A stretch of DNA of 64,000 nt from contig CM068583.1 of assembly GCA_035048485.1 (NCBI GenBank), forward strand, positions 42,763,542 to 42,827,541, given 5' to 3'. Positions 7,751-64,000 of this stretch are shown piece by piece (within the stretch, counting starts at the first letter, position 1; each line of letters opens with the position of its first letter). A model generated the notes under the pieces. The model did not search any database. It had not been told where the DNA came from and saw only the letters and a list, made by a program, of their open reading frames with translations. The DNA comes from Pteria penguin. Taxonomy: Eukaryota; Mollusca; Bivalvia; Pterioida; Pteriidae. Both the position numbers and the translations under genes were made by a program.

Positions 7751-8607
7751 CTAGCTAGATTTTTCTAAAGACTTATCAACAATTGTGACCTGAATGCTTG
7801 TAACTCCCTCTGGTAAATCTTTTCCTTCTACAGAAGTATCCATTTGACATTCATTTTTATCTTTAGTGAGAAAAAATTCTGGGACCACATTTTTATTATC
7901 AGCTGACACTTCAGAGTTTGTTGACTTGGTTACTGGTTCATCAGAGTTTATGTCCCTGGGAGTCTGAGGTGGAGCAATGCTACTATTTGTTTTGTAAAGT
8001 GATTCACCAGAACTTAAAGCAACTGATTTGACTGTTAATGTATTACTTAAATTAGGTGCAACTTGTGTACTCTCTCCTAAGACTGCTTCTTTGACATCAG
8101 TTTCTGTAGTTTGAAGTTCATTACTTTTGTTAGTACTCTGCTGACCTGTATGATCCTCTGATGAAGGAGACTCTTCTGCAAGATCTTTAGCAGATTTCTC
8201 AGACTCGTCAATAATTTCAGTTTTCGCTTCACAAGACTCACCAGGTTCATTTTTATCAAGTTCTATTTTTTCAGTACCAATATTAGAATCAATATTAACT
8301 ACTGTTTCCTCTGCCTTATTGTCAGTATCTGTATTGTCTTTTATCTGAGTTTCAGACTCATTATCAGACTGAACTTCCTTAATCTTTTCAAGACTTTTTT
8401 CCAAGGTTTCACTTGGATTTTCTTTATCACTACCATCTTTTAATGAGAAAGCACTAGTGGGGGTTGGTGGAGGTTGGTTAACTGTATCCTCAGAATAATC
8501 TCTTTGTTTACGGTAGTACATTTTTGGAGCCGTTTTACCTGTAACTGTTGGAAGGACCGAGTCGTAACCATTCTTTGGCTTTGATGTTTTGAATGTGACC
8601 ATAACTT
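7751..8607 (-). CDS. Exon 10 (last) of the minus-strand gene
   Basis: The acceptor is TTGTATTTCAG|AA. The exon encodes 285 residues: a short basic start (VMVTFKTSKPKNGYDS), a proline run (PPPTPT), then a long low-complexity acidic tail rich in Glu, Asp, Ser, Thr and Asn. The bias and lack of hydrophobic clusters indicate disorder. The stop is TAG at 7751-7753. The adjoining intron joins in phase 1. Confidence 0.75.
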
Positions 8608-11600
8608 CTGAAATACAATTAAAGCTTTTTTTTTGGAATTAATCATCTAAAGATGAGTAAAGATTATTATGAACCATCAAACATAAACTCTAAATGATGA
8701 TTCTGGATTTTATCATTAGATAATAAACAAGATTTCCCATAGCTGTATAAATTCATTTAAATAAACTTTAATTATTCATCATACTTCTATCAATTTCCAT
8801 TTCCATTATAAAAATCAGTACCTAAATGAATTCTCAATGTTAATATCAATTTCATGTTTATGCTTTATATCTATTAAGTTTTTACTTTATCATGAAAATA
8901 TCTTGCTACAAAAGTAAATTCAGCTTTACTCACATGCAGGTTATTCAAATGAAAAAATCAAACTACATTTGTAAGCATTTGTAAGTATGTCATGTCTGAA
9001 ACTTTATACTATTAAAACTGTATTAATTAGAATGTACGACAATTGTAAAGAGTGTAAGTGATGAATTCTCTTGGATGAAGAGTGACCACTAGCAATTGGT
9101 CTGACAATGGGGTATGACATGAGCATAACTGGTCTTTGACCTATAGAGTTGAAATCTAGCTACTCATAAATGCTATAGAGCTTATGTTGGAAAATTTGTC
9201 ACCCATGGTTGTCATGATCCAATTCACAAGTACAGACAGTTTTCAGGATACAGAAGTTCAACAGAGAAATAACATTAGGACCACAGAAAGATAAAAATGT
9301 TGTATTTCATCCCAACCCCTACCACAGAACATTTGAAGGTAGGCACAATAGATTGCTTGGTTATCCATTGAAAACCTCTTTAGCAATTACTTTAAAGCAA
9401 TTAAAGAATTTAGATTATACTCTGTAAAAATAGGATAGTGCAGAGCAAACATTGAAAGTTGCCAATTGCAGATTTTTCTACATGCTGCAACCTGAATTCT
9501 CAATAGAATACAAACTCACTAAGGAGCAAATCACTAATGTTTATATTATAAAATAGAGAGCAAAACAGAAATAAAAAATTCTATAGTTTCTGCTAAACTA
9601 ATCACTGACATTCCTTAGTTGTTATGTCCTTGTTATTGATACATAAGAAATTAGATGGTCACTATTGTAAAACACTTAAATTGAGGGGACTTTACTTTCC
9701 CATATTTTGACATGTGTGACACTAAACAAAAACACAAATATGACACCAAACGAAAACAAAGAGCTTCCTTACTGATGATGTGACTGTTGAAATATAACAC
9801 GTTTACGAGTTCTCGTGAAAAAGAGGTTGCTGGTAAATTCAAATTGAGATCACCATGAAAATAAAGACATGCAAAATATAAGTGATTTACAGGTTACACC
9901 ATTAAGGAGTCTATCTCCCACACAGTAAATAGACACACTTCAATATTATTGCTACTGTATCAATAAGCATTATTCTGATTAAAAGTAAAGTATATTCAGA
10001 TTAGATAATAAATTTCAGAAATTGCAGAACAACTATAAAATAAGGTTAAGTCATTTTTATACTTGAAGGGTATACACAGCAATTCTATAAGCTTCCCACT
10101 CCCAAAACCATCACCACTTCTACCGTCACCACTAGCTACGAACTTTTTTTACGCTTGGATTTTTCATGTTTAACGTTCTCACTTTGGTTATCCCTGTGCA
10201 ATATTGTCACTGAAGTGCTGTGCTCTCCCCATGCACTTAGAGGACGACCGTGCATAGGAGAAGATAGTAACCTTTTTCCTGGTGCTGTTGATGGTCTCTT
10301 TTCTGTAGGAGAGTTCTCTTCAATATCAGAGCGAGGAGAGTCTGGGAAGGAATAAATGAATTTAACAGATAAGACTATCTATTCCAATCTCCTCAGTACA
10401 TAGAGAACACAGATAACAAGGACAACTATATATCCTTGTTTAATTATACACCTGTCAAAAGTCACACAATAGATAAATTCTTCAAATTTGACAATGTGAC
10501 AATCAAAGATTTAGAAGGTTTTGTTTCAGTAAAAGTGTTGTTTGAACATGTTAAATAGTAAACAGTATGCAATTTTCATGAGGTATTTCACAAATTTATG
10601 CATATACTGTTTAATGATTCATACAGACATAAAATATCAATGTTTCGTTGTGAATTGTATATTTGTGAAACAGATTTGTTAAAACATATAAAATTGGAGA
10701 TTACGAACAAGTGCATAAATTTTCAATGATACTCATAGTTCCAGTATAACATTCTAGATTAAAGAACAGAAGGGAGTGTACTGTGCACATAATATAGGTC
10801 ATAATGTTCATCTGATATCAAAAGTACACATCAAGGTAATCTTATATGCAAAATATCAAGTCTTCAGTCCTTCTCAGTTCTGAAATTCTTAGTTAAATCA
10901 TTGAACCATGAAATATTTGCCACACTGACTTAGTTTCATCTGAAATCAAAGATACAAATCAAAGTAATTTAACATGCAAAGCATTAATTTTGTGAGTCCT
11001 CTTTAGTATTGAAGATTGTTGAGAAAAATCATTCACCCATGAAATGTAGGTCACACTTAGTATGATCTGAAATCAAAAGTACATATCAAAGTCATCTCAT
11101 ATGCAAAGTTTTAAGTCTGTGGTTCTTCTAAGTTCTAAAAGTCTGCTTTGACCAAAAACTACAAAACAATGCCAAAGTCAGACAGATGGAAATCACCAAT
11201 CAATAGATCATAATTAATTGTCTTTGCAATCTAGCTAAAAAATGGCCACTATTCTGTGATTTGTATATAGCACGTGAACAAACCTGGAGGTACACTTGGA
11301 ACACTTTGTCCTTTATCTCTACTTTTTTGAGTAGCATGCCCAGTCATAAAAAGAGCATGAGGATTGGTTCTGGGCATGTATACACCATACACAGACAGAC
11401 CTTTGGCATCAAGGAAGTGAGCTCTGAAAAAGACTGAAAATTATTAAATCCAGCCTTAGATGAATTATATTAAATGGTAGTATTTCAAAAAAACACATCT
11501 ACTGCCTACTAAGATAGAAGAGACATATATATCACAGTGGGAAAAACACATAAATACAAGACTGGCAGACAATAGACAAATTGATGCTTAATTAGTGTCA

Positions 11601-33555: not shown

Positions 33556-35604
33556 ATGGAAAGAAGGTACAAATTGATTCTTTACTTCACAGCATGGGTT
33601 TTACTTGCTATCATTGCTGTGATTCTGAATTTTCTGAACATAAACTTCGACAAAACCCATTATGCCACTGGAATAGTATTGACTTTAATATTGGGTATAG
33701 TACAAGGAAGCGTGCTCGAATACCCCGTACAAACTATTGCTTGTCTAATCGTCGGTGGCTGGAAACGCGATGTACCACGAGCACCGTCATTTTCACAGAC
33801 TTTGATTCTGAACTACAATCTGCTTGCTTACAGTCAAGAAGAGATAGACGAGTGTATGGAGATGATGTATAAAGCATATATGGGAAATCTTAGTTATAAG
33901 ATATCAGCAGTTCTTGTCAGTGCAACCAGTGATGATCTACTGAGGGGCTACGAGATATTCACACGTGACTATTATAGGACTTCTATTTTTGATGAACTTT
34001 ATAGCGAAGGACTAGCCTTTGCTCGGGGAGAATTCGACTCCATCGACCCTTCGCATTATCGTCATATATGGGCACAGTACCAAAATATAGAACCCAGTGA
34101 ATTCAAAAGAATTTATCTTCATGAAATCTGTGGAAGATTCGCTAGAGAATTTATGGTCATTCACAGAGTAAGTAGAGTGCTTCGAAAATGCGGACAATAT
34201 CAAGATTTAATGCTCCTATCGTCAGGCGATAACCGTGCATACACATATTGTGACGTTGACTTTTACAGTCGAAGTGCTCGAAAATATGGAGAACCTTTGT
34301 TTTATGAAACTGCTGATGTACTAAATATTTTGGGTAAAAATTTCGATTACACACTTGTACTTGACGGGGATACAGGTGTTCCAAAGAAAACAGCTTACGA
34401 TTTATTACGAATAGCGGAAGCACATCGGAATCGTGGAATTATTCAGCCCGCCATAAATCTGCAGTGTCAAAAACGTGACACCATATTTATGCATTTAGAA
34501 TGCATGCGACAGACACTAAATGAACCACTTACAAATTCGAATGCTGCTATCTTCGAACAGTCGTCTTATTTTGGAAAAGCTTTGATAAGGAATGACATTT
34601 ACATTGAAAAAGTTTTAGGTTCTAGGGAAAATCTTATTGAACGTGTACCCATAGATGTGTTAAGTCACGATACATTCGAGGCGGCTTTGTTACAGCCTTT
34701 GTACGTAGGAACAGTTTTCCTAGAAGAAGCCCCTTGCTATAATTATGTCTCTTGGAATATACGAGAAAGGCGATGGAACAGAGGTGAAATTCTGCTAGCT
34801 ATATATTTCTGGAAAACATTTTTCGGGAAACCGATGCGTTGGTTACAAAAGAAATTTCAGCGACAACGATTCATTGAAACTCATCTGCGAACAGAGTCAA
34901 AATTAGATTTCGTGAGTCGCCACATTGCCCACGCTGCTATTCGACAGATGATCATGAAGCCATTGCTTTTGTTATTTGTTTTGATACACATTGCTGTTGA
35001 GCTGAAATATCAATACGCACCAATCATTATTATAATGTTCTTTGTTCTTGTGTTTCCAAAGTTTGCAACATGTAACTGCCGTAATTTGAAATTTGTGATA
35101 GTGGAAACTATTGCGTCAATTCTTCAGTTTACACCAGAGGCGGCTACTGGTTGCATTAGGATAATACGGGCGTTTGAAGCAAACATATGTGCATCGGCAA
35201 AATGGGTTCCACAGCGAGCGGTAGAAGCTGAATTCCACAATTGCAACGCTTTTGTATCATCTTTCAAACACTTATGGGGATACAGTATCTGTGCTGCCAT
35301 TGGAAGCATTCTTATTTTGATATTTTACATGCCAGGGGTAATGGTACTCTTTATGTTCGCAACCTTAATACTTTTACCTTTATATACAGGACTGACATCA
35401 CTTCCATTAGGATTTGCGGCTCGCTACAGACCACGAGTCGAAGATGAGGAAGTAGGGCTCACGAACGCGCAAAGGAGAAACATGTATCGAAAAATGAGCA
35501 GCACATGTACAAAAAGTACGCATATCTCCCAATCATCATCGCCCTCACAATCTTCACAAAAGAGTCTGTTGCGCTGGCTGGATCCGAATGCGGATATACG
35601 ATGA
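33556..35604 (+). CDS. GT84-like membrane glycosyltransferase, copy 1
   Basis: A single exon encodes 682 residues. Two hydrophobic segments (about 7-27 and 38-66) precede a cytosolic GT-A-like domain: KISAVLVSATSDD (115-127) as the first strand, LVLDGDTGVP (267-276) with the DxD motif D270/D272, SSYFGKALI (336-344), VLSHDTFEA (368-376) with the likely catalytic D372, and RERRW (403-407) in place of QxxRW. Four more membrane segments follow (about 467-482, 487-502, 575-592, 595-615), and the stretch PEAATGCIRIIRAFEANICA to AVEAE (527-559) fits the segment after the GT domain in bacterial cyclic beta-1,2-glucan synthases (NdvB/ChvB). The order of motifs suggests GT84; OpgH-type GT2 is the main alternative. 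The GH94 phosphorylase part of the bacterial enzyme is absent. The likely role is UDP-sugar-dependent beta-glucan synthesis at a membrane, by inference. The Ser-rich C-terminal tail (648-670) is unlike bacterial members. AATAAA signals follow, and host repeats flank it. Confidence 0.75.
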   Translation: MERRYKLILYFTAWVLLAIIAVILNFLNINFDKTHYATGIVLTLILGIVQGSVLEYPVQTIACLIVGGWKRDVPRAPSFSQTLILNYNLLAYSQEEIDECMEMMYKAYMGNLSYKISAVLVSATSDDLLRGYEIFTRDYYRTSIFDELYSEGLAFARGEFDSIDPSHYRHIWAQYQNIEPSEFKRIYLHEICGRFAREFMVIHRVSRVLRKCGQYQDLMLLSSGDNRAYTYCDVDFYSRSARKYGEPLFYETADVLNILGKNFDYTLVLDGDTGVPKKTAYDLLRIAEAHRNRGIIQPAINLQCQKRDTIFMHLECMRQTLNEPLTNSNAAIFEQSSYFGKALIRNDIYIEKVLGSRENLIERVPIDVLSHDTFEAALLQPLYVGTVFLEEAPCYNYVSWNIRERRWNRGEILLAIYFWKTFFGKPMRWLQKKFQRQRFIETHLRTESKLDFVSRHIAHAAIRQMIMKPLLLLFVLIHIAVELKYQYAPIIIIMFFVLVFPKFATCNCRNLKFVIVETIASILQFTPEAATGCIRIIRAFEANICASAKWVPQRAVEAEFHNCNAFVSSFKHLWGYSICAAIGSILILIFYMPGVMVLFMFATLILLPLYTGLTSLPLGFAARYRPRVEDEEVGLTNAQRRNMYRKMSSTCTKSTHISQSSSPSQSSQKSLLRWLDPNADIR

Positions 35605-38905: not shown

Positions 38906-41225
38906 ATATCTAGATATCACATTATCTTACGACATATCTAAATATCACGTTATCCTACGACATATCTAGATGTCACATTATCTTACGACATATCTAGATA
39001 TCACGTTATCTTGCGACATATCTAGATATCACATTATCTTACGACATATCTAGATATCACGTTATCTTACGACATATCTAGATATCACGCTATCTTACGA
39101 CACATCTAGATATCACATTATCTTACGACATATCTAGATATCACATTATCTTACGACATATCTAGATATCACATTATCTTACGACATATCTAAATATCAC
39201 GTTATCCTACGACATATCTAGATGTCACATTATCTTACGACATATCTAGATATCACGTTATCTTGCGACATATCTAGATATCACATTATCTTACGACATA
39301 TCTAGATATCACGTTATCTTACGACATATCTAAATATCACGTTATCCTACGACATATCTAGATGTCACATTATCTTACGACATATCTAGATATCACGTTA
39401 TCTTGCGACATATCTAGATATCACATTATCTTACGACATATCTAGATATCACGTTATCTTACGACACATCTAGATATCACATTATCTTACGACATATCTA
39501 GATATCACATTATCTTACGACATATCTAGATATCACATTATCTTACGACATATCTAGATACCACATTATCGTGCGACATATCTAGATATCACATTATCTT
39601 AGGACATATCTAGATATCACATTATCTTAGGACATATCTAAATATCACGTTATCCTACGACATATCTAGATGTCACATTATCTTACGACATATCTAGATA
39701 TCACGTTATCTTGCGACATATCTAGATATCACATTATCTTACGACATATCTAGATATCACGTTATCTTACGACATATCTAGATATCACGTTATCTTACGA
39801 CACATCTAGATATCACATTATCTTACGACATATCTAAATATCACGTTATCTTGCGACATATCTAGATATCACATTATCTTACGACATATCTAGATATCAC
39901 GTTATCTTACAACACATCTAGATATCACATTATCTTACGACATATCCAGATATCACATTATCTTACGACATATCTAGATATCACATTATCTTACGACATA
40001 TCTAGATACCACATTATCGTACGACATATCTAGATAACACATTATCTTACGACATATCTAGATACCACATTATCGTACGACATATCTAGATATCACATTA
40101 TCTTAGGACATATCTAGATATCAGATTATCTTAGGACATATCTAGATATCAGATTATCTTAGGACATATCTAGATATCAGATTATCTTAGGACATATCTA
40201 GATATCACATTATCTTAGGACATATCTAGATATCACATTATCTTAGGACATATCTAGATATCACATTATCTTAGGACATATCTAGATATCACGTTATCTT
40301 ACGACATAATCTGCATATCACGTTATCTTAGGAAATATCTACATATCACATTATCTTACGATATATCTACATATCAGATTATCTTAGGACATATCTAGAT
40401 ATCACATTATCTTAGGACATATCTACATATCAGATTATCTTAGGACATATCTAGATATCACGTTATCTTAGGACATATTTAGATATCAGATTATCTTAGG
40501 ACATATCTAGATATCAGATTATTCTAGGACATATCTAGATATCACGTTATCTTACGACATAATCTGGATATCACGTGATCTTAGGACATATCTACAAATC
40601 ACATTATCTTACGATATATCTAGATATCACATTATCTTAGGACATCACATTATCTTAGGACATATCTAGATATCACGTTATCTTAGGACATATTTAGATA
40701 TCAGATTATCTTAGGACATATCTAGATATCAGATTATTCTAGGACATATCTAGATATCACGTTATCTTACGACATAATCTGGATATCACGTGATCTTAGG
40801 ACATATCTACAAATCACATTATCTTACGATATATCTAGATATCACATTATCTTAGGACATATCTAGATATCACATTTTCTTACGACATATCTAGATATCA
40901 CATTATCTTAGGACATATCTAGATATCACATTATCTTAGGACATATCTAGATATCACATTATCTTACGACATATCTAGATATGACGTTATCTTAGGACAT
41001 ATCTAGATATCACATTATCTTACGACATATCTAGATATCACATTATCTTACGACATATCTATATATCACTTTATCTTACGAGATATCTAGATATCACGTT
41101 ATCTTAGGACATATCTAGATATTACGTTATCTTACGACATATCTAGATATCACATTATCTTAGGACATATCTAGATATTACGTTATCTTACGACATATCT
41201 AGATATCACGTTATCTTACGACATT
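38906..41225. repeat. 28-bp satellite array (~82 units)
   Basis: The consensus unit is GACATATCTAGATATCACAT followed by TATCTTAC, with ATATCTAGATAT a 12-bp palindrome. Variants (CACGTTATC, TTGCGAC, TTAGGAC, CAGATTATC) are not random: a block with TAAATATCACGTTATCCTAC starts at 38939, 39191, 39331 and 39639, at distances of 9, 5 and 11 units, which shows duplication of multi-unit blocks. A 144-bp block at 40441-40590 also recurs at 40670-40820. Confidence 0.95.
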
Positions 41226-48500: not shown

Positions 48501-51500
48501 ATTACGTCATAGTCCATATCTTTACAATTCTGACATCATAAAGCAAATAACAGTATATACAACAAACACAATAGACTTTTAAATTCGGAAATGTGACTTT
48601 TCAACAATATGTATCCAACAGAATTTCCCATCCCAATTTCTACGGTGATCTAGTGTACAAACTAAGGAGGGTCAAAGGTTCCGATAACTTCATATCCGCG
48701 GATTCTAAAATTATAAAACGTCTTCGACATCGACAGTATGACCCCAAGATCATCGATAAAACCATAGGTCTTGTATTGGGTCCCTCTAGAATCCAATTAC
48801 TTGACCGTTGCACGCTGACCAACAGGGAGGTGGGGACTCTATGATGGGCCTTGTCCAAAACTTTTCAGAGGAGACAAGGCCCTGATCCTCGTCAACTCTG
48901 ACCTTTAGTCGGGAATCCTATTGATCAAGGATCTGAGCTCGCTTACAGACGAACAGAGCACGGTTACTTGTGTTGATGTCGCCTTACACATTTTTGATAG
49001 CAACATATTATTCTAGAAATTTTTCATGTGTAATCAATTTTTATAACCTCTCTTCTTGACAAACCTGTTGATCCTTGTTTTCTATATGGAGGATTATTTA
49101 TAAATTTTTAAATGTGTGTCCTTTGATTGTACTGCTTTTGGGGTGAGTGGGAAGGTGGACGCCCGTAATCGGTTAACCACACCAATAAAGTGATGTTTCT
49201 TACTTCAATTGACCGTCCTAAGTTGGTATCGTAACCGCAGCACCGTCGGATATTTTGTAATGCCGTTCAGTGTATATTCTACTATTATCATTTTTTTGTA
49301 TGCAGGTCCTTTGTGATTTGTGTCATACAGCTTTGTCAGATGTCTTCCGTTCTCTCTTCTTTCTGTAATATGAGAAGCTGTAACATTGGATGGTAAAATG
49401 ATTAATGTTCCTTCCAAATCGATCAGATTGTCAGATGACAAGTGAGATTGGTGGATACGTTAATCAATTTGTCGTCCAATATTACTGCTCCTTAGTTAAC
49501 ATCAGACGTTCATTGCTCCTTCTTGGCACATGATCTCATTATTCTTACATTATGTAATAAAATAGTCAAACGTCTCCTAAATAGACAATCTGATATTGAG
49601 ATCATCAAAAAGACTATAGGTCTTGTATTTGGCCCCTCTACAGCCTTATGCAGACTTTTACTTGAACGTTGCACGCTGACTAACAGGGCGGTGGGGTCTA
49701 TATGACGGGCCTTGTCCAAACCTCTTTCAGAGGAGACATGGTCCTGAACCTCGTCCCCTCTGACTGTTAGTCGGGACTCCTACAGATCTAGGGTCTTAGC
49801 TCGCTTTCAGACTGGCAGAGCGCGGTTTATCATGTTGATGTCGCATATATTTTTATACCATTATGTGTTTTACAATACCTTACGTGTTTATATTTTATGA
49901 CCTCTCAATATGCGATACCTGTTGACCCTTGTTCTTTACATGGAGGATTATTTATAAATTTTTAAATGTACGTCCTTTGATTGTTCTGCTGTTATGGTGA
50001 GTGGGAAGGTGGGCCCATAAACCGGTTAACCACACCATTTGTTTGGCTTTTGTCAAATTAAATGACCGTCCTAAGTCGGTATTGTAATTGCACTACAATC
50101 AAATATTTTTGTAATGTGTTATATGTTCTAGTATATTATTTATATTCATGTATTGTATAGCTCCATGGTGACTTCTGCCACATAACTGAGCCAGTAACTC
50201 CTCTTTTTTCTTACATGATCCATGATTTCTAAGCCGAGTTATTACATAGTTTTCGTCAGTTGTACTTACCGCTTAATTTATATGATAACAGATGTCAAAA
50301 GAAGCTTTCAGTAAAACGTTACGATAAATATAGAAAATATATACCTTTTAATTTCTAAAGTAAACTCGGCCATGGTACTATTAGCTAGTTATAATCACGT
50401 TAATAAATTGTAATGTGTTGTTGGAAGCATAAAACTGTGAGACAAAATGTAAGCAAATTAAACGTATAATTTGTTTGATTGATATTGAATTTTTTAATGT
50501 TTATCTGAGCAATTCTTGTGCTCAATATATTGTCTTGTTAAAATGAACAATATCCAATGCCTGTGTATCGCAGTGGATGAGGTGCTCGGTTACTGACTTA
50601 GCCGTGGTTCGATTACAACCATGCGCACACCGATGTAGTGTCTTTTGGATTAGAGAGTGAAAACAGAGGTCACGTGTCACGGTGGACGTGGCAAATAAAG
50701 ATCCTTCGCTGCGCCGGGTGGGTCCTTATCAAAGATAAAATCTTCTATTAAATTCAGGCAGATGCAATCTCTATATACGAGAAATAATCGTGAACATTAC
50801 TATATAAAAAATAACTAGCACGTTTACTGTGCTGTATGATAAGTTTGAATTTAAACATTATTTTAGCCATTATTATCATTAAGATATAAATGCAGATTTA
50901 ATGATGAATATGATTTTCACAAATGCATAATGTATCATGCATAACATAGTTTTCAAGGTCTATACATGAGGAGATCTGTTTGCATAACAAGTAGTGTGTA
51001 TATATCTAATGTTCCCATGTTTTTTATTAGGGATATTGCAAAACGATGGGCGGAAAATTGGCTAAAATAGAAAGCGCTGATGTCCAGAACTTTATCCAAA
51101 CTCAGATAAGTTCTAAATACAAAGGTGAAGTATTATCGTACATATTACTTATAAAAGTGATATCAAAAATGCTTAACTCATATGTATCGAAAGAGGATGC
51201 TATATAAAATTCACTACTACTTAGTGGGAAATTGAATTTGCTGTAACTTAATGATTATGTCAGAATTATCTGTTGATATATGTACATATATGTATATGAT
51301 ACTACTATATGAGTATGCAACGAAAGTTTGAGCATCGAAATGACTACTATGAAAAAGTGTCCGAAGGTGCCCCCATATTTTCCTAACCCCGGTCACTTTT
51401 TCTACAATACAGAACGAATATATTAGTTTCCTACTTTCTTCATGAAAGGAGAATTGTTTATATTTCACATGCACATAGTTTAGATCTGCGTAACATTTCG

Positions 51501-53406
51501 TTATAAGGGAAAATACATGTATCTCAAAATTAAAAAAATCAATACATGCTATCAATATATTTTTCTTATTATGTCGAAAAGTTAATCTAATGGTCTGCCC
51601 TATTTTGTGAAATTTTCAAATTTTGTTTTGCCATTGAAAGATAGTATCATTACCAAAGTACTTATAAAGAACAAAAGGATATAGTTAAAAAGACATGGAA
51701 AACTTTTTATATATTGTTTTAGACCGTTATACACAACTGGTATGGTTGGCTACAGAAGATGCCTACTCATCATCGGCGCCTGTTATTATCTTTAAAGATA
51801 AATAATTTAGCAAACCACTTTTGACTGCCCTAGTGTAATTGTTTATTTAGCATAGATATGTAGTTTCATTATGTTGTCCCTATGGATTGATACTGTTCTT
51901 AATCTATTTTAACTTAAGATTTATGTTACATCAACGCCCTTTACAGAATAATGCAGACTTTTCCTCGAGATTTGCACTCTCACTAACAACACGGTGGGGA
52001 CTGTATCAGACCTTGTCTAAAATGTTTCAGACGAGATATGATCCTGAACTGTGTCCCTTCTGACTGTTAGTCTAGACTACTGCAGATAAGCGACCTAGGG
52101 TCACTTTCAGATTCGGTTGGCTTATGATTTATATTTGTTCCATAATATTATTCCCCTTTTAACTTTTATGATTTTTCAACCTGTGGCTACCAAGTCTGTG
52201 ATTACTTGTCTCATAAAACTGGGTCAGATGTCTTCTTTTATTTCTTTTGGAAAGTTTATTTGAAACCGCGATTTATCACAATATTTACTCCATATTCATA
52301 TCTGATGTCTTTATACTGAATGTAACATATCTGTTTTAGCTAACAACATCACCGTGAGGACAGGAAATGATTATAGATACCATTACATATACGATTCCGG
52401 CATCGATGTTCTGGGCCATACATCTGTAACATTTAATGTTATGGCATGCAACGATGCCCATGTCGCTCTATCGAAGACGAAGGGTGTGGATACCAGAGAT
52501 ACCTACGAGATTGTGATTGGGGGATGGGTGGACAGCCAATCAGTCATTCGAGACTGTAAACAGTGCCAAAACTATGATGTGGCCAATCATAATCACCATC
52601 CAATAAGCTGTACTGCTTTTAAACCGTTCTGGGTCAGTTGGGCACACAACATCATCAGAGTTGGCACAGGCAATATAGTTGGCAAAAATATTATCTTGCA
52701 ATGGGATGATCAGGGACCACATGATGTCAATTATGTAGCAGTGGCCACGGGGTGGGGTGCAACAGGAATCTGGACATTTAATAATGGTATGATCAGACAA
52801 TTCGAAAATAAAAATGAGACGTTGTCATATTTAGAGTGTTATAAGTATACTACGATAAATAAAACTAGAATTGATATATTTCATATTCATACAAGATGAA
52901 GATAGTAGATTATTATGTATATCTGTAGTTGAACGCAAAACAAGAAATTTAATATAAAAAAAGGTAGGTAAGAAAATACTATCTATAATGATGAAAGACG
53001 TCAGGTAAAAGCATAGCTTTATCTTGTCATTCAAGGTCTTATAGTTTTGTATAGTATGTTGCTAATATTAGTTTATTATAGTACCATAAAAGACTGTCAG
53101 ATGCTCCTATTATAGAGATTAAAGTATATAGTTCATATGGATGTAAATTCGGATATTGTAGCTACGTTCTCCCCGGGACTGTTTTGGATTGGCGGTACAG
53201 ATCTGGCAGTGGAAGGACAGTGGTTGTGGCTTCCCGGAGTAAGCGAATTCGACTATATCAACTGGGCTCCAAATGAGCCCGATAACTTCAACAACCAAGA
53301 TCACTGTGCACTTATTGATCTACATCGAGGATATCAATGGGCTGACGACATTTGTGAAGAGAATAGAAACTTTATTTGTGAATTTGATCCTTCTGGAAAT
53401 AAGTAA
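45465..53406 (+). CDS. Secreted C-type lectin with optional FAMeT-like exon
   Basis: Exons 45465-45534, 45993-46072, 51031-51124 and 53162-53406 join in frame to a 162-residue protein: a signal peptide (MALFVEFFFIVTYVLDIAYC), then one long-form C-type lectin domain with CPSG, KCYH, YCKTMGGKLAKIES, FWIGG, WLWLPG, DHCALI, WADDIC and NFICEF, giving all six cysteines. The sugar/calcium loop reads EPD where EPN or QPD are usual. Exon 52340-52786 lies between the two halves of the lectin domain, has phase 1 at both ends and 447 nt, and codes for a whole FAMeT-like domain; with it the product is 311 residues. Such lectins act in animal innate immunity or particle capture outside the cell, a family inference. 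Introns hold many repeats. The last exon's acceptor could also be at 53131, adding ten residues in frame. Confidence 0.75.
45993..46072 (+). CDS. Lectin exon 2, N-terminal CTLD
   Basis: The acceptor is TTTCTTTTCAG|GA and the donor GCAATG|GTAATA. It encodes CPSGFVAHLGKCYHISETEA and SWAGAM, the first cysteine pair and the conserved Trp-Ala of the domain start. Confidence 0.8.
46073..47440 (+). other. Lectin intron 2, first part
   Basis: Non-coding; no repeat boundary recognised. Short open frames on both strands show no domain features. Confidence 0.4.
47448..48398. repeat. Hairpin-ended repeat with two internal modules
   Basis: It starts with a hairpin CCCGTCATTAGACGGG and a GTCCGTCCGTCCGTCCG run, and ends with GACGGGCGTATTATGCAACG plus the hairpin CAACGCTAGGCGTTG. 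Two internal modules (47510-47820 and 47830-48180) both contain TTTTTGCCGTCTTTCAAGAT, GGCGTCA-TACCAGTTCGAG and TTTGACGGATTTATGGCCC and end in G-runs (47803, 48135, 48155). It lies in lectin intron 2. Confidence 0.65.
48560..49280 (+). mobile_element. Penelope-like element, 5'-truncated copy
   Basis: The frame 48593-48844 encodes the end of a Penelope-like reverse transcriptase (QQYVSNRISHPNFYGDLVYK to CTLTNREVGTL), and the following ~430 bp match the non-coding tail of the copy at 49430. The element is cut short inside its tail near 49275. The catalytic domain is missing. Confidence 0.6.
49430..50215 (+). mobile_element. Penelope-like element, second 5'-truncated copy
   Basis: It lies in tandem after the copy at 48560. 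The 49523-49705 frame ends TLTNRAVGS, followed by the shared tail with AACCACACCATTTGTTTGGC and the complete 3' end at 50215. It shares 50024-50215 almost exactly with 38459-38646. Confidence 0.65.
50555..50810 (+). mobile_element. tRNA-derived SINE, plus strand
   Basis: The head GTGTATCGCAGTGGATGAGG (A-box) and GTGGTTCGATTAC (B-box) is followed by the family body: GGTCACGTGTCACGGTGGAC, AAAGATCCTTCGCTGCGCC, GGCAGATGCAATCTCTATAT. The tail is lost. It lies in lectin intron 2. Confidence 0.7.
51031..51124 (+). CDS. Lectin exon 3, CTLD middle
   Basis: The acceptor is TTTTTTATTAG|GG and the donor TACAAAG|GTGAAG. It encodes GYCKTMGGKLAKIESADVQN and FIQTQISSKYK, the C-x-GG-LA-I-S helix region. It ends in phase 1. 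Confidence 0.8.
51728..51806 (+). CDS. Possible alternative terminal exon
   Basis: After the acceptor TATATATTGTTTTAG the frame continues in the right phase for 26 residues (YTQLVWLATEDAYSSSAPV within it) to a TAA at 51804-51806. Joined to exon 3 it would end the lectin early, after the signal peptide and half a domain. It may be a real short isoform, a decayed exon or chance. Confidence 0.3.
51930..52245 (+). mobile_element. Penelope-like element, strongly diverged fragment
   Basis: CGCCCTTTACAGAATAATGC, CTAACAACACGGTGGGGACT, CCTTCTGACTGTTAGTCTAG and GTCTCATAAAACTGGGTCAG follow the order of the element end at 49620-49850. It ends about 100 bp before the FAMeT-like exon. Confidence 0.5.
52340..52786 (+). 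CDS. FAMeT-like domain exon (symmetric 1-1)
   Basis: The acceptor is TCTGTTTTAG|CT and the donor AATAATG|GTATGA; 447 nt, phase 1 at both sides. It encodes about 149 residues with the marks of the farnesoic-acid-O-methyltransferase-like domain (Methyltransf_FA): FNVMACNDAHVALS, YEIVIGGWVDSQSVIR, FKPFWVSW, IRVGTGN and VAVATGWGATGIWTF. Despite the family name, such domains in molluscs are usually parts of extracellular proteins and methyltransferase activity is not implied. If the exon is instead the start of a separate protein it lacks its own signal peptide. Confidence 0.75.
53162..53406 (+). CDS. Lectin exon 4, C-terminal CTLD and stop
   Basis: The acceptor is ATATTGTAG|CT with a poor pyrimidine tract; an in-frame alternative is TATATAG|TT at 53131. 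It encodes PGLFWIGGTDLAVEGQWLWL, the loop NEPDN, DHCALI, QWADDIC and NFICEF, then DPSGNK and a TAA. EPD replaces the EPN of mannose-type lectins, so sugar preference cannot be read off. Confidence 0.8.
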
Positions 53407-54380: not shown

Positions 54381-55640
54381 AGAAAAAAGAGGAGTTACTG
54401 GCTCAGTTATGTGGCAGAAGTCACCATGGAGCTATACAATACATGAATATAAATAATATACTAGAACATATAACACATTACAAAAATATTTGATTGTAGT
54501 GCAATTACAATACCGACTTAGGACGGTCATTTAATTTGACAAAAGCTAAACAAATGGTGTGGTTAACCGGTTTACGGGCCCACCTTCCCACTCACCGTAA
54601 CAGCAGAACAATCAAAGGACGTACATTTAAAAAGTTATAAATAATCCTCCATGTAAAGAACAAGGGTCAACAGATATCGCATATTGAGAGGTCATAAAAT
54701 ATAAACACGTAAGGTGTTGTAAAACACATAATGGTATAAAAATATATGCGACATCAACATGATAAACTGACTGCTCTGCCAGTCTGAAAGCGAGCTAAGA
54801 CCCTAGATCTGTAGGAGTCTCGACTAACAGTCAGAGGGGACGAGGTTCAGGACCATGTCTCCTGTGAAAAAGGTTTGGACAAGGTCCGTCATATAGTCCC
54901 CACCGCCCTGTTAGTCAGCGTGCATCGTTCAAGTAAAAGTCTGCATAAGGCTGTAGAGGGGCCAAATACAAGACCTATAGTCTTTTTGATGATCTCAATA
55001 TCATATTGTCTATTTAGAAGACGTTTGACTATTTTATTACATGATAAAATAATGTTATCGGAGCCTTTTACTTTCCTTAGTTTATATACGAGATCACCGT
55101 AAAAATTAGGATGGGAAATTCTATTGGATACATACTGTTGAAAAGAAATATTTCCAAATTTAGATAAAAGTTCTGAATAAGATCTGAAGAATTTGTCGAA
55201 TGTTTTTCTTAGCTTGTGATATCTGTAACCCTGAGTTAAAAGTTTAGTAGTAATTTGTAAATTTCGTTTATGAAAGTCCAAAACATCGGTGCAGCCTCTG
55301 ACAAATCGAACTAATTGAGATATATAGATACCATATGATGGGAGTCGAGGGACATCGCCATCCAAGTAAGGGAAATTTACAATAGGAAATCCAAAATCCT
55401 CACGTTTATCATAAATATTAGTATATATTAGGTGGTTGATAATTTTGATGTTTAAATCTAAGAAAGGTGTAGATTTATCTCAAGTATTAGCTTTATCCAA
55501 TGTGAGCTCTGGTGAATATATTTCTGATATAAATTGTTCGAATTCAGGGTTGTCGATGACCAAATTGTCATCCGGATATCTGCAAGTATTATTAAATTTG
55601 TCAATGAGGTCAAAACGTTTTGGTTTTTGAATAGAAACCA
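54381..55640 (-). pseudogene. Penelope-like retroelement, minus strand, 5'-truncated
   Basis: On the minus strand the sequence starts in the RT palm with RYPDDNLVIDN (the YxDD catalytic motif, intact), contains an in-frame TGA shortly after, and continues as an open frame at 54889-55365 with YGIYISQLVRF, QGYRYHKLRKTFDKFFRSY and CTLTNRAVGT. The non-coding tail ends at 54381 and matches the tails at 30010, 38459 and 50024. No GIY-YIG endonuclease is visible. The family call rests on the layout of the RT thumb, and another RT class cannot be fully excluded. Confidence 0.65.
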
Positions 55641-57345
55641 TAAACAAGAACAAACACTATTCTATATTTCGTGACTCCAGTGTAGTTAGAGAACATTCTC
55701 GACTTCGTGAAAATTTCATTATTGTTCCTGCTGACAAGGCAGCTAACAATTACACATTCGTATTTAAGGTATATTATATTTAATGTCTTACAGAAGAGCA
55801 AGGACATCATTCAACGCCTGGGAATCCAACTTACACAGTTATAAATCTGTCTCCTTCAGAGGTATTGGATAATCACAAATCAGTTCTCAGTTTCTTCGGT
55901 ATTACTACAAATGAATCTGATCTCGAGCTACCATACCTTGTTTTGGATTTCAAAGATGCATAAAACTCCATATAAGCATCGATTCATAGCTGGATTTTCC
56001 AAGTGTTCCACAAGTCTCTCTCCGTGTTACTCACCAAAAGTCTAACAGAAATCAAATATAGTCTTCAGAAATACGGCTCTACTGCTTACCCGAGAAGCGG
56101 AATCAATCAAATGTGAATTCCAAGTATCTTCTAGAGCACTTAAAATCTCCTATTTTCACTAGCATAAAATCTTTTGGCTTTTCGACTCTTTATACAACCA
56201 TTCCTCATCAAAAACTGAAGAACAGAATAACAATTATTCAAAACGCCTTCTTAAAAAAAAAAGGAACTCGCCGGTATGAGTACCTCGTTTTAGGCCACAA
56301 AGACACATATTTTGTAAAGAAGCAGTCTGATTCCAACCACAAGTATACAGAAAAGAAGATCATCCAAATGTTAGAAATTCTTATAGATAATATTTTTGTG
56401 ATATTTGGTGGGAAAGTGTTCCAACAGATTGTTGGCATTCCTATGGGTACTAATTGCCCACCTCGTCTGGCCGACATATTTTGTACTCTTACGAAGCAGA
56501 ATTCATACAGTCTCTGCTCTCTAAAGGCAATAAACAATTAGCATCCTGGTTCAACTTTACATACAGATACATCGATGGCGTTCTGTCGATTAACAGCCCT
56601 GTATTTAAGGATCACCTCAATATAATATATCCAAAGGAACTTGAGATAAAAGATACAACAGAGAGCCCATCTTCTGCTTCATACCTCGATATACTTATAT
56701 GACGATGGTTTATTAGTAAGCTCTATGTATGACAAACATGACGATTTCAATTTCATTATTACCAACTTCCCTTTTCTGAGTAGCAACATACCTTCCTCTT
56801 CCGCATATGACGTCTTCATTTCACAACTTATACGCTGTGCCAGGGCATGCTCTAAATACGAAAATGTCGTCAAGAGAGCGAGGCTTTTTGCCACGAAAGT
56901 ACTCTCACAAGGATATGTTGAACGTTTGAAATTGTCACTGAGGAAGTTCTATGGTCAATATAGGCATCTAGTGCAATTTCAGATTCCTCTTTCAAGAATG
57001 TTAACTGATATTTTGGGACCTAACCATACAAAATAACCAATCTTAACTTTTTGACTATACATCATTTGACATAATACGTACATATATATACAGACATTTG
57101 TTCACGTGCGTTTCCGACACCGGATTTTCAGTCAAGCTGCATTTCTTGTCTTGAATGGGAAAATTTGACTTTGTGTTCTTGTCTTCTTCGTGTGCTCGTG
57201 CATGTATATTTATGTATTTACATCCTCGACTTGAAAGGTTGTTGCAGGACATTTGCGACGGGTATTGCATGCAACCAGGGGACACTTACTCCTCCCGGGC
57301 ACCTGGTCTCACCTCGATTTTATTGGGGTTTGCATTTGTCTGAAT
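55641..57345 (+). pseudogene. Penelope-like retroelement, plus strand, broken
   Basis: RT pieces lie in order but in several frames: FIIVPADKAANNYTF (about 55705), LTKSLTEIKYSLQKYG (56030), KSFGFSTLYTTIPHQKLK (56160), QQIVGIPMGTNCPP (56420), YIDGVLSINS (56565), ITNFPFLSSNIPSS (56750) and a thumb to 57036. The catalytic YxDD has become YIDG, and there are frameshifts and stops, so it is inactive. It abuts the minus-strand copy head to head at about 55640 and belongs to a different subfamily, whose 3' part (GACGGGTATTGCATGCAACC, ACCTGGTCTCACCTCGATTT) reaches about 57345. Confidence 0.7.
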
Positions 57346-60276: not shown

Positions 60277-61963
60277 TTCCAAACATTATCTCTTAGTATA
60301 GATATCAGACACTACCAAACATTATCTCTTAGTATAGATATCAAACACTGCCACACATTATCTCTTAGTATAGATATCAAACACTGCCACACATTATCTC
60401 TTAGTATAGATATCAGACACTACCACACATTATCTCTTAGTATAGATATCAGACACTACCACACATTATCTCTTAGAATAGATATCAGGCACTACCACAC
60501 ATTATCTCTTATTATAAATATCAGACACTACCAGACATTATCTCTTAGTATAGATATCAGACACTACCAAGCATTATCTCTTCGTATAGATATCAGCCAC
60601 TACCAGACATTATTTCTTAGTATAGATATCAGACACTACCAAACATTATCTCTTAGTATAGATATCAGCCACTGCCAGACATTATCTCTTAGTATAGATA
60701 TCATACACTACCAAACATTATCTCTTAGTATAGATATCATACACTACCAAATATTATCTCTTAGTATAGATATCAGACAATACCAAACATTATCTCTTAG
60801 TAAAGATATCAGACACTACCAGACATTATCTCTCAGTATAGCTATCAGACACTACCAGATATTATCTCTTAGTGTAGATATCAGACACTACCAAACATTA
60901 TCTATTAGTATAGCTATCAGACACTACCAGACATTAACTCTTAGTGTAGATATCAGACACTACCAAACATTATCTATTAGTATAGATATCAGACACTACC
61001 GAACATTATCTCTTAGTGTAGATATCAGACACTACCAGACATTATCTCTTAGTGTTGATATTAGACATTACCAAACATTATCTCTTAGTGTTGATATCAG
61101 ACACTACCAAACATTATCTCTCAGTATAGATATCAGACACTACCAGACATTATCTCTCAGTATGGATATCAGACACTACCAAACATTATCTCTTAGTGTA
61201 GATATCAGACACTACCAGACATTATCTCTCAGTATGGATATCAGACACTACCAAACATTATCTCTTAGTGTAGATATCAGACACTACCAAACATTATCTC
61301 TTAGTATAGATATCAGACACTACCAAACATTATCTCTTAGTATAGATATCAGACACTACCAAACATTATCTCTTAGTATAGATATCAGACACTACCAAAC
61401 ATTATCTCTTAGTATAGATATCAGACACTACCAAACATTATCTCTTAGTGTAGATATCAGACACTACCAAACATTATCTCTTAGTGTTGATATCAGACAC
61501 TACCAAACATTATCTTTCAGTATAGATATCAGACACTACCAAACATTATCTCTTAGTATAGATATCAGGCACTACCAAACATTATCTCTTAGTATAGATA
61601 TCAGACACCACCAAACATTATCTCTTAGTATAGATATCAGACACTACCAAACATTATCTCTTAGTATAGATATAAGACACTACCAAGCATTATCTCTTAG
61701 TATAGATATCAGCCACTACCAGACATTATCTCTTAGTATAGATATCAGACACTACCAAACATTATCTCTTAGTATAGATATCAGCCACTGCCAGACATTA
61801 TCTCTTAGTATGGATATCAGACACTACCAAACATTATCTCTTAGTTTAGATATCAGGCACTACCAAACATTACCTCTTAGTATAGATATCAGACACCACC
61901 AAACATTATCTCTTAGTATAGATATCAGACACTACCAAACATTATCTCTTAGTACAGATATTA
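60277..61963 (+). repeat. 36-bp satellite array (~47 units), one frame open
   Basis: The unit is AGTATAGATATCAGACACTA followed by CCAAACATTATCTCTT. All units from 60295 to about 61960 keep a 36-bp period with no indel that I can see. Read from the AGT, each unit encodes the 12 residues SIDIRHYQTLSL. This frame is open from 60277 to the stop at 62062-62064, about 595 codons, with the first ATG at 61162. The other plus frames have a TAG in most units. No start context, splice site or signal peptide supports a gene, so I call it a satellite. Confidence 0.9.
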
Positions 61964-62694: not shown

Positions 62695-64000
62695 ATGGAA
62701 AGAAAGTACAAGTTAATTCTTTACTTCACAGCATGGGTTTTACTGGCTATCATTGCTGTGATTTTGAATTTTCTGAACATAAACTTCGACAAAACCCATT
62801 ATGCCACTGGGATAGTATTGACATTAATATTGGGTATAGTACAAGGAAGCGTGCTCGAATACCCCGTACAAACCATTGCTTGTCTAATCGTCGGTGGCTG
62901 GAAACGTGATGTACCACGAGCACCGTCATTTTCACAGACTTTGATTCTGAACTACAATTTGCTAGCTTACAGTCAAGAAGAGATAGACGAGTGTATGGAG
63001 ATGATGTATAAAGCATATATGGGAAATCTTAGTTATAAGATATCAGCAGTTCTTGTCAGTGCAACCAGTGATGATCTACTGAGGGGCTACGAGATATTCA
63101 CACGTGACTATTATAGGACTTCTATTTTTGATGAACTGTATAGCGAAGGACTAGCCTTTGCTCGGGGAGAATTCGACTCCATCGATCCTTCGCATTATCG
63201 TCATATATGGGCACAGTACCAAAATATAGAACCCAGTGAATTCAAAAGAATTTATCTTCATGAAATCTGTGGAAGATTCGCTAGAGAATTTATGGTCATT
63301 CACAGAGTAAGTAGAGTGCTTCGAAAATGCGGACAATATCAAGATTTAATGCTCCTATCGTCAGGCGATAACCGTGCATACACATATTGTGACGTTGACT
63401 TTTACAGTCGAAGTGCTCGAAAATATGGAGAACCTTTGTTTTATGAAACTGCTGATGTACTAAATATTTTGGGTAAAAATTTCGATTACACACTTGTACT
63501 TGACGGGGATACAGGTGTTCCAAAGAAAACAGCTTACGATTTATTACGAATAGCGGAAGCACATCGGAATCGTGGAATTATTCAGCCCGCCATAAATCTG
63601 CAGTGTCAAAAACGTGACACTATATTTATGCATTTAGAATGTATGCGACAGACACTAAATGAACCACTTGCAAATTCGAATGCTGCTATCTTCGAACAGT
63701 CGTCTTATTTTGGAAAAGCTTTGATAAGGAATGATATTTACATTGAAAAAGTTTTAGGTTCTAGGGAAAATCTTATTGAACGTGTACCCATAGATGTGTT
63801 AAGTCACGATACATTCGAGGCGGCTTTGTTACAGCCTTTGTACGTAGGAACAGTTTTCCTAGAAGAAGCCCCTTGCTATAATTATGTTTCCTGGAACATA
63901 CGGGAAAGAAGGTGGAACAGAGGCGAAATTCTTCTCGCTATATATTTCTGGAAAACGGCTTTTGGAAAACCGATGCGTTGGTTACAAAAGATATTTCAGC
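62695..64000 (+). CDS. GT84-like membrane glycosyltransferase, copy 2 (cut by window edge)
   Basis: The first 435 codons of a second copy, equal to codons 1-435 of the gene at 33556, with a constant offset of 29,139 bases and no indels. It keeps LVLDGDTGVP, SSYFGKALI, VLSHDTFEA and RERRW, so the GT domain looks intact. I see only four amino-acid changes (R4K, T326A, F422A, K433I) against more than 25 silent ones. Silent changes cluster at the start and after about 63,885, and the middle is almost identical, which suggests gene conversion. The role is as for copy 1. The C-terminal membrane part lies outside the window, so whether this copy is complete is unknown. Confidence 0.75.
   Translation, partial: MERKYKLILYFTAWVLLAIIAVILNFLNINFDKTHYATGIVLTLILGIVQGSVLEYPVQTIACLIVGGWKRDVPRAPSFSQTLILNYNLLAYSQEEIDECMEMMYKAYMGNLSYKISAVLVSATSDDLLRGYEIFTRDYYRTSIFDELYSEGLAFARGEFDSIDPSHYRHIWAQYQNIEPSEFKRIYLHEICGRFAREFMVIHRVSRVLRKCGQYQDLMLLSSGDNRAYTYCDVDFYSRSARKYGEPLFYETADVLNILGKNFDYTLVLDGDTGVPKKTAYDLLRIAEAHRNRGIIQPAINLQCQKRDTIFMHLECMRQTLNEPLANSNAAIFEQSSYFGKALIRNDIYIEKVLGSRENLIERVPIDVLSHDTFEAALLQPLYVGTVFLEEAPCYNYVSWNIRERRWNRGEILLAIYFWKTAFGKPMRWLQKIFQ

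Follow-up and report, generated by a model that had tools for sequence, protein, structure and literature searches.

The stretch of DNA analysed here (the window, 64,000 nucleotides) spans positions 42763542-42827541 of contig C4 (CM068583.1; 74.1 Mb) in the 838,482,794-base, 49-contig assembly of the bivalve Pteria penguin (GCA_035048485.1). It carries a single-exon gene for a 682-residue membrane glycosyltransferase (copy 1) and, at its end, part of a second copy. These belong to a family of five genes, which is best explained as an animal-resident third lineage of the group that contains the OpgH (MdoH) and GT84 glucan synthases. We judge it probable that this explanation is right and that the family encodes active membrane beta-glucan synthases.

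Five intact copies in the genome

A 682-residue single frame containing DGD, LSHD and RERRW (Table 1) as well as SYFGK (residues 337-341) had been described in an earlier note made from the window alone, and the frame and all four motifs were found where that note placed them. Chance was rejected as the source of this frame, since stop-to-stop frames in 30 random 64-kb sequences (first-order) reached 176 aa at most. A protein search of the genome gave five places, every frame being open with zero internal stops. Four are on C4, namely copies 1 and 2, separated by 29 kb (the second was overlooked in the earlier note), and further copies at 57.76 Mb and at 17.0 Mb; the fifth is on C10. Each of the five paralogs is a single frame. 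Their alignment, and with it their conservation, begins at a shared Met, and in copies 1 and 2 a TGA lies in frame immediately 5' of this ATG. AATAAA motifs are found 3' of the stop codon, as had been claimed, and the 838-Mb assembly and the 74.1-Mb contig are of animal scale. The short interspersed elements reported nearby were not recovered, ARAGORN and Rfam (gathering thresholds) both being empty.

The DxD, LSHD and RERRW motifs and the block EFMVIHRVxRVLRKCGQYQDLMLLS are kept in all five paralogs. Amino-acid identity ranges from 55% to 96% (619 core codons), and dN is 0.23-0.37 in nine of the ten pairs; dS was not computable (NG86, YN00), which we read as probable saturation. The five paralogs diverged long ago and have been under purifying selection. 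No two of them have the same Ser-rich tail, which fits an unconstrained tail; its recent addition, suggested in the earlier note, is unsupported.

Copies 1 and 2 show 33 base and 4 residue differences over 435 common codons (dN 0.0049, dS 0.107), and no alignable sequence was found within the stretches of their flanks that were compared. There are 42-44 base differences per 60 codons at codons 541-660 and none at codons 181-300. The two copies are identical for up to 434 bases without a break; 2000 permutations gave at most 150 bases over the whole length and 365 within the first 540 codons. This mosaic most probably comes from gene conversion that was confined to the coding sequences of two genes born of an older duplication, and such conversion would also explain why the similarity of the two copies starts at the ATG.

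Family assignment by profiles

The window protein had no Pfam match over cut-off (best E 0.07, unrelated), and weak generic GT2 matches were obtained for three of the other four copies. With NCBIfam, MdoH (OpgH) models alone were matched, by every one of the five copies (best E values from 3e-11 to 9e-8); the best of eight MdoH models gave 38.7 bits, short of the 419 bits set for membership. A candidate match to a phycobilisome-linker model was rejected: its best E was 0.002 (window protein) or 0.004 (family profile), it was confined to about residues 80-176, a region in which Pfam recognised no family.

OpgH and GT84 profiles built here were compared. OpgH loci were collected with an LSHD-pattern scan, the best 80 of at least 331 confirmed loci being kept in order of similarity to the animal protein, and redundancy removal reduced the OpgH set from 77 to 23 rows and the GT84 set, which is small, from 12 to 10. 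The labels OpgH and GT84 follow the length and motifs of each row and, in a few cases, its annotation; L047 and L062 were excluded by length, and ten near-copies of viral loci were excluded as well. Scores in genome searches were given to the best candidates only. The window protein scored 56.4 bits on the OpgH profile and 39.3 on the GT84 profile, and the other four copies 54.3/39.2, 45.9/40.5, 48.9/21.0 and 38.3/37.1. On the GT84 profile no OpgH row exceeded 21.5 bits, and on the OpgH profile no GT84 row exceeded 18.7, so that the animal protein is closer to each group than the groups are to each other, subject to the choice of OpgH rows by similarity to it. The controls gave 16.1/-0.5 (BcsA), 16.2/1.8 (PgaC) and below 0 (20 shuffles). 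By hhalign, the paralog profile scored 145.7 with OpgH over 302 columns and 111.5 with GT84 over 527 columns (residues 4-622).

A tblastn search of plasmids matched 79 records; among the 20 matches listed, one was annotated as MdoH and 14 bore a glucoamylase-family or a GH94 annotation (NdvB type); the other five were unannotated, one of which we read as OpgH. No description of an animal OpgH/GT84-like family was found in the open literature searched.

Phylogenetic placement

When the outgroup was removed, the OpgH rows (33), the GT84 rows (10) and the five animal proteins formed three clades, each with support of at least 100/99 (GT84, 100/100), and the animal proteins lay outside the clade of the 10 GT84 rows. 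For these rows, the sequences place the animal family as a third lineage beside OpgH and GT84. The rooted tree comprised 50 rows, with BcsA and PgaC as outgroup and with the first 10 of 24 new bacterial proteins (L114-L137) entered. In it the animal clade joined GT84 at 100/96, a join flagged as long branches meeting, and the grouping of the animal proteins with OpgH had a p-value of 0.02 in the approximately unbiased test. Removal of GT84 with the BcsA and PgaC outgroup kept left the OpgH rows no longer forming one side of a branch; the rooting is therefore unsure.

Catalytic residues and spacing

In Cgs (GT84), uridine diphosphate (UDP) is held by D527 and D624, D739 is the base, R773 lies within the RW motif, and Tyr694 bears the glucan primer and is autoglycosylated (PMC10901819). 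D270, D372 and R406 of the animal protein correspond in motif and order to D624, D739 and R773 as given there, and D270, D272, D372 and R406 are invariant in all five paralogs. The bacterial rows were picked through LSHD, so their agreement at this motif is by construction. The spacing from DxD to the base is 102 in 5/5 paralogs, 103 in the four OpgH rows looked at (4/4) and 112-115 in 10/12 GT84 rows, those with a cleanly found motif. Ten of 12 GT84 rows have Pro-Tyr 45 residues upstream of the base, and the Tyr is absent from all five paralogs. P298, K341 and R409 (the last in 4/5 paralogs) are common to the animal protein and GT84, each occurring in 10/10 GT84 and 0/33 OpgH rows; A342 (33/33 OpgH rows) and mostly Y338 are common to the animal protein and OpgH. 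The Asn of the OpgH GHNA motif before the base (33/33 rows) is Lys in 5/5 paralogs.

Predicted fold and membrane layout

An AlphaFold2 (AF2) model of copy 1 has a GT-A fold flanked by membrane helices, two on its N-terminal side and four on its C-terminal side. The six-helix layout of GT84, in which a long segment separates helix 4 from helix 5, as outlined in the legend to Fig. 1 of PMC10901819, was recovered both in the model and by hydropathy. Hydropathy peaks past the base are spaced as in GT84 (close pair, gap, close pair); the spacing differs in the E. coli OpgH compared. Hydropathy alone gave 5-6 peaks in each paralog, and one peak, at residues 103-121 of paralog L106, falls within the glycosyltransferase domain; as the simple method overlooks some helices in every group, the layout is to be read as a pattern, not a count. 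In the structural search Cgs was the best match (fold Z 18.8; hyaluronan synthase, 12.7), and by Foldseek E-value a hyaluronan synthase stood in the first row. A membrane part in GT84 order and a bacterial-type glucan-synthase module had been described in the earlier note, and the GT84-like helix layout and residues and the best structural match support such a module.

The open reading frame (ORF) starts at helix 1 and stops shortly past helix 6. It has neither the N-terminal TPR-like domain nor the cyclase domain of GT84 proteins. PF10091, which probably marks the cyclase part, was present in two GT84 proteins scanned and gave no match in the ORF. Pfam found no GH94 domain in the ORF, and a GH94 search of the genome gave a single match of 17.9 bits, below the cut-off of 27 (control: matches in 2/14 genomes, above cut-off in one). 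A loss of the GH94 half had been proposed; nothing indicates that the protein ever carried one.

Alternative identities

The protein could be a true GT84 module, transferred to the animal and stripped of its GH94 and cyclase halves, which we regard as unlikely. The rooted tree, with its GT84 join and its disfavoured OpgH grouping, speaks for such an origin, as do the Cgs fold match, the like helix layout, and P298 and K341. On the other side stand the higher OpgH profile scores, a GT84 clade that excludes the animal proteins, a DxD-to-base spacing next to that of OpgH, the missing primer Tyr, a genome search with no GH94 over cut-off, and the long-branch flag on the rooted join. Of the earlier claim, a bacterial-type glucan-synthase module in an intronless animal gene is supported; membership in GT84 itself is unsupported, given the OpgH profile scores, the separate clade and the lack of GH94, cyclase domain and Tyr primer.

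That the protein is an ordinary metazoan synthase of chitin or hyaluronan, wrongly read, is highly improbable. These enzymes and the animal protein have the GT-A membrane fold in common, and a hyaluronan synthase leads the Foldseek E-values. Yet no Pfam chitin-synthase match was found for the window protein (Chitin_synth_2, none at E <=10), its fold score with hyaluronan synthase is well under that with Cgs, and the solved hyaluronan synthases gave no sequence match at E <=10, the similarity being in fold only. Across the genome 24 pieces matched Chitin_synth_2; each exceeded its cut-off, and the sites of the five copies were not among them. The genome search thus does detect GT2 genes, and the matches lie elsewhere, several as separate pieces. 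The model also matched 4/14 control genomes, including E. coli, and the loci are therefore called chitin-synthase-type rather than proven chitin synthases. Frames from three such loci (105 frames) scored at most 3.0 bits on the OpgH and 6.0 on the GT84 profile, and the longest frame of each locus carries EDR and QRRRW, which we take to be chitin-synthase-type motifs. The earlier note had named a better metazoan GT2 profile as grounds for rejecting a bacterial-type enzyme; no curated chitin-synthase model matched, and the OpgH and GT84 scores of the animal protein are far above those of the chitin-synthase-type frames. The pieces themselves lie on C2, C4, C5, C9 and C14, with several neighbouring pairs and some internal stops, which suggests an expanded, intron-bearing chitin-synthase-type family in this animal.

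Several points weigh against an active synthase of a third lineage. OpgH rows were selected in order of their similarity to the animal protein, a bias in favour of OpgH in the profile comparison. The AF2 model is of middling quality (predicted local distance difference test, pLDDT, 63.7; predicted template modelling score 0.68), and its input alignment included OpgH and GT84 rows, a possible pull towards Cgs. A sequence search of the PDB found no OpgH chain, so that OpgH was unable to compete in the fold search. Finally, the first UDP-binding Asp is apparently Ala in 5/5 paralogs (in two alignments; the region is unaligned in a third), which could mean weaker or altered donor binding. The distance from Ala123 to DxD is 147, compared with 96-101 in GT84 (8 rows where the site was found) and 60 in OpgH; as it exceeds both, an insertion has to be assumed. 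An acidic residue four positions further on (D/E127) is kept in 5/5 paralogs. The Ala is also what favours a pseudoenzyme or regulatory membrane protein, with the fold retained and polymer synthesis lost. We think this improbable, the remaining catalytic residues being invariant across five anciently diverged copies, which is unexpected for a dead site.

Origin

Prokaryotes were scanned with the paralog profile. Matches were obtained in 29/194 and 1/247 genomes of two phyla (E <=1e-5), in 35/398 genomes of a third (E <=1e-7; 839 genomes in the three phyla) and in 5/6 further genomes (E <=0.01). The matches listed fall between positions 202 and 503, and most of them between 245 and 425, with a best score of 49.9 bits over 252-412; none of the 80 bacterial loci kept from the LSHD-pattern scan exceeds 32% identity to the animal protein. 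No full-length close relative was found in these 839 genomes and the six others, and a recent transfer is therefore unsupported, as is the horizontal acquisition of the earlier note if taken as recent. The lack of introns and the bacterial nature of the nearest relatives, among the bacterial, viral and plasmid collections searched, would suit a recent gift from a bacterium or bacterial contamination; the copies on two contigs, one of 74 Mb, and the distant and partial bacterial matches make this scarcely credible. Contamination was rejected on the five copies on C4 and C10. The family may derive from an ancient transfer or by vertical descent, both being compatible with searches of these collections.

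A viral origin was also rejected: the window protein alone matched no viral contigs, and phage records gave no match. A further search of viral contigs gave 15 loci with open frames of 1076-2172 aa, NdvB-like by length and motif, and the best match in a viral fold search (E 1e-6) was weaker than the top PDB matches.

Proposed activity

Synthase activity, donor, linkage and export are inferred. The donor would be a UDP-sugar, most likely UDP-glucose, taken up from the cytosol side, and residues would be added singly to a beta-glucan at the membrane face. OpgH builds a beta-1,2 backbone. Both kin groups make such backbones, so a beta-1,2 chain would be the first-guess product. Cellulose and hyaluronan synthases need no primer attached to a protein to begin a chain. 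As the animal enzyme lacks both the primer Tyr and the GH94 domain that controls length in Cgs, its chains would start in the same manner, and the product would be handed into the protein's own membrane part.

Animal membrane polysaccharide synthases commonly listed are those of chitin, hyaluronan and, in tunicates, cellulose. We put forward tentatively, as a bolder proposal that may well prove wrong, that the family is an ancient animal beta-glucan synthase class of its own, the third OpgH-GT84 branch, making a beta-1,2-linked or otherwise undescribed glucan with neither primer nor GH94. If so, a conserved five-gene family of another class would predict an undescribed animal glycan. OpgH and GT84, each scoring poorly on the other's profile, would gain a sequence link, and a small GH94-free relative would become available for the study of priming and export in this group.

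Features of the window

The features of copies 1 and 2 are listed in Table 1.

Table 1. Positions in the window of the glucan synthase-like genes and of the parts of copy 1.
Feature	Position	Strand	Evidence
Copy 1 (L102), coding sequence, intronless, 682 aa + stop	33556..35604	+	ORF, sub-cut-off MdoH matches, AF2 model, Cgs fold match, five paralogs
Copy 2 (L103), truncated by window end	62695..64000	+	Full length 684 aa, frame intact
Transmembrane helices 1-2 (N-terminal)	33574..33717	+	Hydropathy peaks at residues 7-25 and 36-54; AF2 helices
GT-A catalytic domain, cytosolic-type, about residues 82-412	33799..34791	+	AF2 strands and helices; hhalign to OpgH and GT84 profiles
Ala123, apparent site of UDP-binding Asp (OpgH LSD, GT84 LTD, Cgs D527)	33922..33924	+	Two alignments
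DxD motif, DGD, residues 270-272	34363..34371	+	D270 and D272 invariant in 50/50 aligned rows
Pro324-Leu325	34525..34530	+	GT84 has Pro-Tyr (Cgs primer Tyr694); Leu or Met in 5/5 paralogs
LSHD, residues 369-372, predicted catalytic base D372	34660..34671	+	Invariant in 5/5 paralogs
RERRW, residues 403-407	34762..34776	+	R406 is D372 +34, like R773 after D739 in Cgs
Transmembrane helices 3-4	34948..35073	+	Hydropathy peaks at residues 465-483 and 488-506
Transmembrane helices 5-6	35248..35388	+	AF2 helices 565-590 and 593-611, preceded by a stretch of ~60-75 residues
Variable Ser-rich C-terminal tail	35416..35601	+	3-55% identity among paralogs; pLDDT <50 for residues 610-682

Two tandem arrays with AT-rich units that look alike are present, at 38906-41224 (28-bp unit, ~83 copies) and at 60279-61961 (36-bp unit, ~47 copies), the latter immediately upstream of copy 2. 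Frames matching Methyltransf_FA (E 3e-33) and C-type lectin (E 7e-9) lie on one strand at 52306-53403 and are perhaps exons of one gene or neighbouring genes. Open stretches at 48575-48841, 49537-50000, 54476-55479 and 56062-57033, some of them repeated (77-96% identical), look like retroelement pieces; Pfam gave no match for the four such frames tested. A 295-aa stop-to-stop frame on the reverse strand (7754-8638), rich in Glu, Ser and Thr and with no Pfam match, is possibly a large exon.

Comparison with known systems

With Cgs (GT84), its top fold match, the animal protein shares the GT-A core, DxD, the LSHD base, the RW motif, the +34 step from base to Arg, residues of the GK and RWxRG type, and the 2+4 helices, of which the fourth and fifth are separated by a long segment. 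It differs in size (682 aa against ~2800 aa), in lacking the N-terminal, cyclase and GH94 domains, in having Leu or Met for the primer Tyr and apparently Ala for the first UDP-binding Asp, and in the shorter DxD-to-base spacing (102 against 112-115). OpgH/MdoH gives the best sequence-profile match and is similar in size, in lacking GH94, in having Pro-Leu at the site of the GT84 primer Tyr and in DxD-to-base spacing (103 against 102); the animal protein is, however, far under the NCBIfam cut-offs (38.7 against 419 bits), has GKA in place of GHNA (Asn in 33/33), differs in helix spacing and lacks the insert found before RRW in 3/3 OpgH rows. BcsA and the hyaluronan synthases (GT2) share the fold class and catalytic residues, but BcsA and PgaC have TED and Q..RW where the animal protein has LSHD and R..RW, their profile scores are much weaker, and the GT2 fold scores are weaker too.
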